Shown: positions 23,075 through 24,150 of the stretch, one piece after another
Layout of the letters: each line of letters starts with the position of its first letter
How positions within the stretch are numbered: the stretch's first letter is position 1
NCBI RefSeq assembly: GCF_026191475.2
Contig: NZ_JAOSLC020000003.1
Span: 2,325,001-2,389,000, forward strand
Origin: Polaribacter ponticola
GTDB lineage: Bacteria; Bacteroidota; Bacteroidia; Flavobacteriales; Flavobacteriaceae
Reading direction: 5' to 3'
Length of the DNA stretch: 64,000 nucleotides
Position numbers and translations under genes: made by a program
The notes under the pieces: model-generated
Told to the model about the DNA's origin: nothing
Database searches by the model: none
The model's input: the letters and a program-made list of their open reading frames with translations, nothing else

Positions 23075-23491
23075 CTAAAAATTACTGATTCGAATTGTGC
23101 TACCAGTTTTTATTACTCTATACTCAATTGCAGGGCATTGGTACCCGTCTGTTTGTGGTGCTCCTCCAAAATCTACGCTATATTTACTTTCGTCGCAAAT
23201 ACACTGTAAAATTCGATTGCTAAAAGACATTGGGTTGCTGCAATCATTAGTAGGGCACAATCTATCAAAAGCAACAAAATCTGTCCCGTTTTTATTAAAA
23301 AGTAAAATTCCTTTATTGCCACCAGAAAGTTTAGCAAAACCTCCAGGAGTTTGGGCGTTTATTAACTCTGGGTTATTTAAATCTGTAACTAAATTTAAGG
23401 GTAAAGTTTGTATACAATTAGCTAAATTACTTGTGTCAGAACAGTTTATAAACAAAGAAATACATAGTAAAGACAATATTTTTTTTAACAT
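23075..23491 (-). CDS. Rieske-like lipoprotein lacking the histidine ligands
   Basis: A 138-residue predicted lipoprotein (lipobox LFINC, Cys 17). The C-terminal half follows the Rieske layout. C79-P-T81 stands where C-x-H is expected. Fifteen residues later C97-I-C99-D100 ESKY stands where CPCHGS-F is expected, followed by VDFGGAPQTDGYQCPAIEY, which resembles the GP-PL-Y ending. Both iron-binding His residues are replaced (Thr81, Asp100) while the ligand Cys positions remain. A [2Fe-2S] cluster of the usual kind is therefore unlikely, and the cysteines may form disulfides. Role unknown; probably attached to a periplasm-facing membrane. It sits upstream of purK with 53 bases between. Confidence 0.7.
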   Translation of the reverse strand: MLKKILSLLCISLFINCSDTSNLANCIQTLPLNLVTDLNNPELINAQTPGGFAKLSGGNKGILLFNKNGTDFVAFDRLCPTNDCSNPMSFSNRILQCICDESKYSVDFGGAPQTDGYQCPAIEYRVIKTGSTIRISNF

Positions 23492-23539
23492 TATAGTTTT
23501 CGGTTTTTATAAAAACGATGACAAGTTACAAATATTTTG

Positions 23540-23547
23540 TACATTTG
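23540..23547 (+). promoter_or_regulatory. Possible -7 element for greA
   Basis: TACATTTG matches the Bacteroidota -7 consensus TAnnTTTG. No good -33 TTG is seen at the right distance. It lies 130 bases upstream of greA, implying a leader that contains the AATCTCA/TGAGATT hairpin at about 23553-23585. Confidence 0.35.
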
Positions 23548-23676
23548 TAATCTAATCTCATTCCTGTAAAGGGTTTGAGATTTTTAAATTTAACCCATAG
23601 TAGGTTTTAAAGTAAACAGTTTTATCTTTTTTTATGAATTAATATAAAGAAATGATAAACTTTAAAAAAGAAAAGA

Positions 23677-24150
23677 ATGAGTGATATATCTTATTATTCT
23701 CCAGAAGGATTAAAGAAATTGAAGGATGAATTGGCGCAACTAGAACAAGTTGAACGACCAAGAGTAACGCAAGAAATTGCAGATGCAAGAGATAAAGGAG
23801 ATTTAAGTGAAAATGCAGAATACCATGCAGCAAAAGAGGAACAATCTCACTTAGAATTTAAAATAGCCAAATTAAAAAACGTAGTTTCAAATGCACGTAT
23901 TTTAGATGAAAGTCAATTAGATACTTCTAAAATATTGATTCACTCTAATGTGAAAATTAAAAACACAACTAACGGAATGGAGTTTACTTACAGGTTAGTC
24001 GCAGATTCTGAAACAGATGTTAGAAACGGAAAATTATCTGTAAACTCACCTATTGGTAAAGGTTTGTTAGGTAAACAAGTAGGGGATATTGCAGAAATTA
24101 ATGTTCCTAACGGAATTATGAAATTCGAAATTGTAGAAATTTCTAGATAA
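23677..24150 (+). CDS. greA: Transcription elongation factor GreA
   Basis: GreA binds the secondary channel of RNA polymerase and stimulates cleavage of backtracked RNA. The 157 residues have the N-terminal antiparallel coiled coil (1-75) with the acidic tip ARDKGDLSENAEYHAAKEEQ. The C-terminal FKBP-like domain ends INSPIGKGLLGKQVGDIAEI-like, here VNSPIGKGLLGKQVGD. The start at MSDISYYSPEGLKKLKDEL is standard. A strong intrinsic terminator follows, then a HIT protein gene. Confidence 0.95.
   Translation: MSDISYYSPEGLKKLKDELAQLEQVERPRVTQEIADARDKGDLSENAEYHAAKEEQSHLEFKIAKLKNVVSNARILDESQLDTSKILIHSNVKIKNTTNGMEFTYRLVADSETDVRNGKLSVNSPIGKGLLGKQVGDIAEINVPNGIMKFEIVEISR

Follow-up and report, generated by a model that had tools for sequence, protein, structure and literature searches.

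Introduction

In canonical Rieske proteins the first cysteine and the histidine of each of two sequence boxes hold the iron-sulfur cluster, and the second cysteine of each box contributes to a disulfide. Rieske folds without a cluster are already known in a few places. Several NirD proteins, which are cytoplasmic enzyme subunits, lack the cluster ligands. In green plants and algae, TEF5/PSB33/LIL8 is described as having a Rieske-like domain devoid of the cluster residues and acts in photosystem II assembly (PMC12164590). Here we describe a predicted Rieske-fold lipoprotein encoded within a 64,000-nucleotide stretch of the Polaribacter ponticola genome (contig NZ_JAOSLC020000003.1, positions 2,325,001 to 2,389,000; this whole stretch is referred to as the window). 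Both ligand histidines of the protein are replaced, and its family lacks the complete ligand set. What is new here is a conserved branch of lipoproteins exported by the general secretory (Sec) route.

Results

The coding sequence specifies 138 amino acids and lies on the minus strand at 23075–23491, as do all the features of the protein given below; the assignment is based on the open reading frame (ORF), which has an ATG start, on relatives and on the predicted fold. The original prediction, which gave no strand, had described the ORF with its cysteine pattern, spacing and downstream end and the replacement of both ligand histidines, all of which are borne out. The remnant of box I reads C79-P80-T81-N-D-C84 (23240–23257), with Thr81 in place of the ligand histidine. 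Fifteen residues separate T81 from the remnant of box II, C97-I98-C99-D100 (23192–23203), where Asp100 stands in place of the second histidine, and the downstream segment is C-P-A-I-E-Y. The mature protein contains six cysteines: C26, C79, C84, C97, C99 and C119. Three of these (C84, C26 and C119) are additional to those first noted, and C84 and C99 stand at the classical Rieske disulfide positions. Compared with the canonical scheme, the window protein therefore retains all four box cysteines, the ligand pair as well as the disulfide pair, while both histidines are gone.

This loss is not private to the window protein. When 226 non-redundant aligned sequences were sorted by site, 23 were canonical and 203 had an incomplete ligand set, with both histidines present in 23/23 of the former versus 0/203 of the latter, and one change on the tree parts the two classes. 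Homologues are not uniformly non-histidine at the ligand positions: none of the ligand-deficient sequences has both histidines, but 121/203 have a box-I histidine, mostly displaced by one residue (C/D-P-N-H). A box-II histidine occurs in 1/203 (L039), which is also the only such case in an alignment of 16 sequences (A1), where box-I histidine is found in none. L039 reads C-T-C-H at box II and has no box-I histidine, possibly by chance reversion. Position 79 is aspartate in a large subgroup of relatives and position 100 is highly variable (D/E/N/G/S/T/P/A). The classical disulfide cysteines C84 and C99 are present in 184/184 Flavobacteriaceae sequences and each in 16/23 canonical ones. Seven of the 23 canonical sequences (L136, L137, L193, L196, L198, L205 and L206) lack the box-II C99, a mirror image of the ligand-deficient family.

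The ligand-deficient sequences also share residues outside the old ligand set. An acidic residue at position 76, typical of this clade (D76 in the window protein, 23264–23266), is found in 183/184 Flavobacteriaceae and 19/19 other ligand-deficient sequences versus 6/23 canonical ones. Other conserved residues of the clade are Pro41 (178/184), Gly58 (180/184) and Asn137 (177/184, and 0/23 canonical). Taken together with the single change on the tree, these clade-specific residues suggest that the cluster was lost once and that the protein was then recruited to a different role, which has been conserved.

As a single sequence the window protein is too divergent for Pfam, with no match at E≤1 (PF00355 included), and in single-sequence searches the E values for the Rieske subunit of arsenite oxidase were 0.082 and 0.077. 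Kinesin-like and TAF15 matches in the single-sequence search of the PDB were taken as chance. The assignment to the Rieske fold, although based on profiles and models, becomes firm once relatives are included. A profile built from 46 diverse family members matched the Rieske ferredoxin CarAc in the PDB (E 9.7e-5), PF00355 matched 10 of the 46 at E≤0.1 (best 2.1e-5), and TIGR02378 (NirD-type) matched four of them (best 0.0012). The AlphaFold 2 (AF2) model of the window protein has a predicted local distance difference test score (pLDDT) of 81.8, and a second model, of a relative that is 57% identical to it (L044), has one of 75.2 (its five models ranging over 66–75). Both match the Rieske superfamily, which accounts for all of the best 50 matches listed by Foldseek for the window model (best E 1.1e-3) and all of the best 50 listed in the fold search with the L044 model (best E 4.2e-4, NirD included). 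The same holds for the best 50 matches listed by VIA-align for the window model, of which the top is the arsenite oxidase subunit AioB, with a Z of 9.1 over 97 residues at 2.6 Å on a scale where a best Z of 7–8 is common without any clear match. A zinc-ribbon reading of the four box cysteines was ranked low on account of the Asp79 found in sister groups.

Residues 1–16 (MLKKILSLLCISLFIN; 23444–23491) form a Sec-type lipoprotein signal peptide without a twin-arginine motif, and the residue that follows, C17 (23441–23443), is the predicted lipidated cysteine, a cysteine being present there in 137/137 sequences of the first alignment. The motif R[RK].F precedes the domain in 23/23 canonical sequences versus 0/177 of the ligand-deficient sequences tested, 7/177 having a looser form. 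A simple lipobox rule found a site in 176/177 ligand-deficient sequences; in canonical sequences L201 and L203 the position that it gives looks wrong. Together with the predicted fold, the profile homology and the family-wide alignment, these export signals back the description of a Rieske-like lipoprotein with which the original prediction began.

The route of export bears on the cluster. In a model for actinobacterial Rieske proteins (PMC5449189), the cluster is inserted before the folded domain is transported by the twin-arginine translocation (Tat) system. Because insertion of the Rieske cluster precedes Tat transport, a Sec-type signal is what one would expect of a protein that receives no cluster in the cytoplasm. 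A PF00355 search of the window's own genome gave no match at E≤1, a threshold that the window protein itself also fails to reach, while the control was positive in 11/14 genomes; thus, the search shows no canonical Rieske partner in this genome. Surface-export motifs of the forms K-(D/E)2 or S-(x)-(D/E)2, taken for comparison from PMC5080379, were present in 17/158 sequences.

The number of cysteines that follow the lipid anchor was counted in 176 sequences and its parity proved to depend on the site. Sequences in which C79 and C97 are present but box-I histidine is absent have an even number in 41/42 cases, and those with C79, box-I histidine and C97 in 34/38. Where box-I histidine and C97 are present without C79 (C99 being present), the number is odd in 70/75, and in the Flavobacteriaceae sequences with D79 that lack both the histidine and C97 it is even in 3/3. 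Away from the site, cysteines near positions 26 and 119 covary: among 158 Flavobacteriaceae sequences both are present in 62 and neither in 96, a single one being found in 0. The corresponding residues of the window protein are C26 (23414–23416) and C119 (23135–23137), the latter invariant in the 16 sequences of alignment A1. Read simply, parity and covariation point to a C79-C97 pair wherever the two residues coexist and to a pairing of C26 with C119. A C79-C97 disulfide would thus very probably form in the window lineage and a C26-C119 disulfide is probable, and the six mature cysteines suffice for C26-C119, C79-C97 and C84-C99.

The family is widespread and under constraint. With the window protein as query, 120/149 sampled genomes of the taxonomic family gave a match (E≤1e-3). 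A profile search across the phylum matched 124/296 genomes, canonical Rieske proteins being among these matches, and none of the 20 listed non-matching genomes (152 more being unlisted) came from the taxonomic family. Dropping saturated pairs left 38 of 55 comparisons of close orthologues, and in these dN/dS, the ratio of non-synonymous to synonymous substitution rates, was 0.04–0.20, indicating purifying selection; many of the pairs retained have dS near or above 1.

The gene also keeps its place. It stands head-to-head with greA (23677–24150, plus strand), from which it is separated by a divergent intergenic region of 185 bp (23492–23676), and a divergent GreA match adjoins it in 155/158 Flavobacteriaceae loci, two of the three exceptions being cut near a contig end. 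A match to a HIT gene is present at 147/158 of these loci. The greA-divergent arrangement was found in 6/6 members from another family of the order and in 0/13 more distant ligand-deficient relatives, and no redox partner was seen among the neighbours of more distant relatives, read by eye from sequence starts. By eye, the neighbours of L170, L174, L176, L177, L179 and L184 are not greA but other genes of housekeeping-like type: pheS with a TetR-type gene, a gene like that for 3-hydroxyacyl-CoA dehydrogenase, and tsaB. A TAnnTTTG match, presumably akin to the Bacteroidota -7 promoter element, which it resembles, lies at 23540 on the greA strand (plus) of the divergent region, and none was found there on the other strand. 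An antisense ORF of 152 codons with a GTG start (23097–23555, plus strand) overlaps the lipoprotein gene.

A link to haemolysis was considered through NCBIfam NF052634, which matched 12/46 family members (best 6.8e-6), and was rejected because the matches whose position was located are confined to the signal peptide. The profile takes its name from Riean_0653, which was identified in Riemerella when transposon mutants were screened for haemolysis (PMC7881567). When 20 of the 46 members were rescanned, nine matched (the best, L111, included), all within profile positions 1–31 of 176, and two of ten other relatives (L138 and L174) matched within the same positions. All 11 located matches fall under the cut-off of the model, and the gene of the window's own genome that lies above it is a different gene.

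Discussion

We propose that the window protein is probably an envelope lipoprotein with a cluster-less, disulfide-braced Rieske fold and a non-redox binding or scaffold role. It would be exported unfolded by the Sec route, rather than folded and with its cofactor by the Tat system, and would fold outside the cytoplasm, where C84 and C99 would form the classical Rieske disulfide. The orphaned cluster ligands C79 and C97 would close as a second disulfide in the window lineage, with C26-C119 as a third. The lipid anchor would then tether to the cell envelope a Rieske-fold domain without an iron-sulfur cluster, and this rigid fold would bind or hold an envelope partner and take no part in electron transfer. 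The analysis supports the original suggestion that no conventional His2Cys2 cluster would form and that the cysteines might be in disulfides or the fold recruited elsewhere; the pairing of the cysteines, the lack of metal and a role in binding or scaffolding are inferred.

Several observations weigh against this proposal. The parity rule fails in places: eight distant sequences have Ser79 and Asp97, of which six have an odd number of cysteines, and in a sister family without C99 the number is odd in 4/6 sequences. Only 16 closely related sequences underlie the AF2 prediction for the window protein, for which the remaining four models reached 52–63, and the Foldseek E values are modest, none being ≤0.001 for the window model. 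The neighbours greA and the HIT protein are housekeeping and uninformative on function. Finally, C97 is conserved together with box-I histidine in many relatives, a sign that bracing the fold may not have been the only function of the ancestral site.

This last point is the strength of the alternative that survives best, in which the old site still holds a metal, as a mononuclear site or an unusual cluster bound by Cys 79/84/97/99 or by C97 and Asp100 (with box-I histidine in relatives), and a metal or redox role is kept. C97 is present in 162/203 ligand-deficient sequences, and all 162 also have C79 or box-I histidine. Among the 118 sequences without C79, histidine and C97 occur together in 82 and neither occurs in 35, with histidine alone in one (L221) and C97 alone in 0. 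In L104 box-I histidine and C97 have both been lost, although the congeneric L212 keeps them. However, when the site columns were left out of the tree, the coupling came down to only four pairs that are independent, two of them on starred branches, all in one direction (sign test p 0.5), and with so few independent events it is a lead, holding but for one sequence, rather than a result. The window lineage itself has no box histidine and an even number of mature cysteines, the D79 of sister groups breaks a four-cysteine site, the variation at position 100 is at odds with a ligand there, and export is of the Sec type. A retained metal site is therefore unlikely in our view. In the genus of G199 (L213–L238), 26/26 matching genomes lack C97 and keep C84 and C99, and with the exception of L221 they have L, I, V, E, M or R where box-I histidine would stand.

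A related history, which we offer tentatively and as rather unlikely, is that an ancestor rebuilt the dead Rieske site from Asp79 (or Cys79), the shifted box-I histidine and Cys97 into a mononuclear metal or Cys-His site. Lineages would then have kept D-P-N-H...C, locked a C79-C97 disulfide (the Polaribacter type) or dropped both the histidine and the cysteine. If true, this would be a visible series on one conserved fold, with a cluster ligand at its start, a new site and then a disulfide as intermediate stages, and complete loss at its end.

The cysteines could instead make up a redox-active disulfide system (C79-C97/C84-C99) in an envelope thiol-disulfide or redox-sensing lipoprotein, as might be expected from the closeness of the paired cysteines in sequence and from the presence of C97 and C99 each in 135/137 sequences of the first alignment (two sequences being canonical Rieske paralogues). 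This is improbable, as the C79/C97 pair is missing or replaced in whole genera that keep the gene, and no thioredoxin-fold match was found among the fold-search matches listed. That the gene is a functionless, pseudogene-like relic, as the degenerate cluster site might imply, is scarcely credible given the low dN/dS, the occurrence of the gene in most sampled genomes of the family, its fixed place beside greA and the residues conserved outside the old site.

On the preferred reading of a cluster-less envelope lipoprotein, evolution seems to have put an ancient redox fold to a different use in the cell envelope. A bacterial family would keep a cluster-less Rieske fold in most sampled genomes, in a fixed place and with a signal for export that differs from the one carried by canonical relatives, and would offer both a natural series for the decay or rebuilding of a metal site and a conserved envelope protein without an assigned role. 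It also carries a warning, in that such proteins should not be annotated as iron-sulfur electron carriers.

No description of the lipoprotein family was found among the matches listed in a search of the open-access literature. The canonical exported Rieske proteins of the phylum (L136, L137 and L186–L206, of PF00355 type), recovered by the family profile or query, share with the family G110, aromatic residues at 104 and 124, the hydrophobic core and an export signal. They differ in that their ligand boxes have the form C-x-H and C-x(2)-H and that a twin-arginine-type motif is present, neither of which is found in the window family, and, unlike the window clade, 17/23 lack the acidic residue 76 and 23/23 lack Asn137. 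AioB (1g8k, 8r3a; TIGR02694) is the best VIA-align match, with window residues 69–112 aligned to CPHKGC...CPCH, but it has the histidine ligands of which the window protein has none, and the single-sequence E values were only 0.077–0.082. NirD-type nitrite reductase small subunits (2jo6, 4aiv, 3c0d) have the same fold among the matches listed; NirD is an enzyme subunit, however, whereas the window protein is a lipoprotein encoded beside greA. TEF5/PSB33/LIL8 appears to be the best precedent found. It is likewise described as a membrane-attached Rieske-like fold without cluster ligands, a likeness of kind rather than of demonstrated descent, and it is a chloroplast protein held by C-terminal transmembrane helices where the window protein would be held by a lipid anchor.
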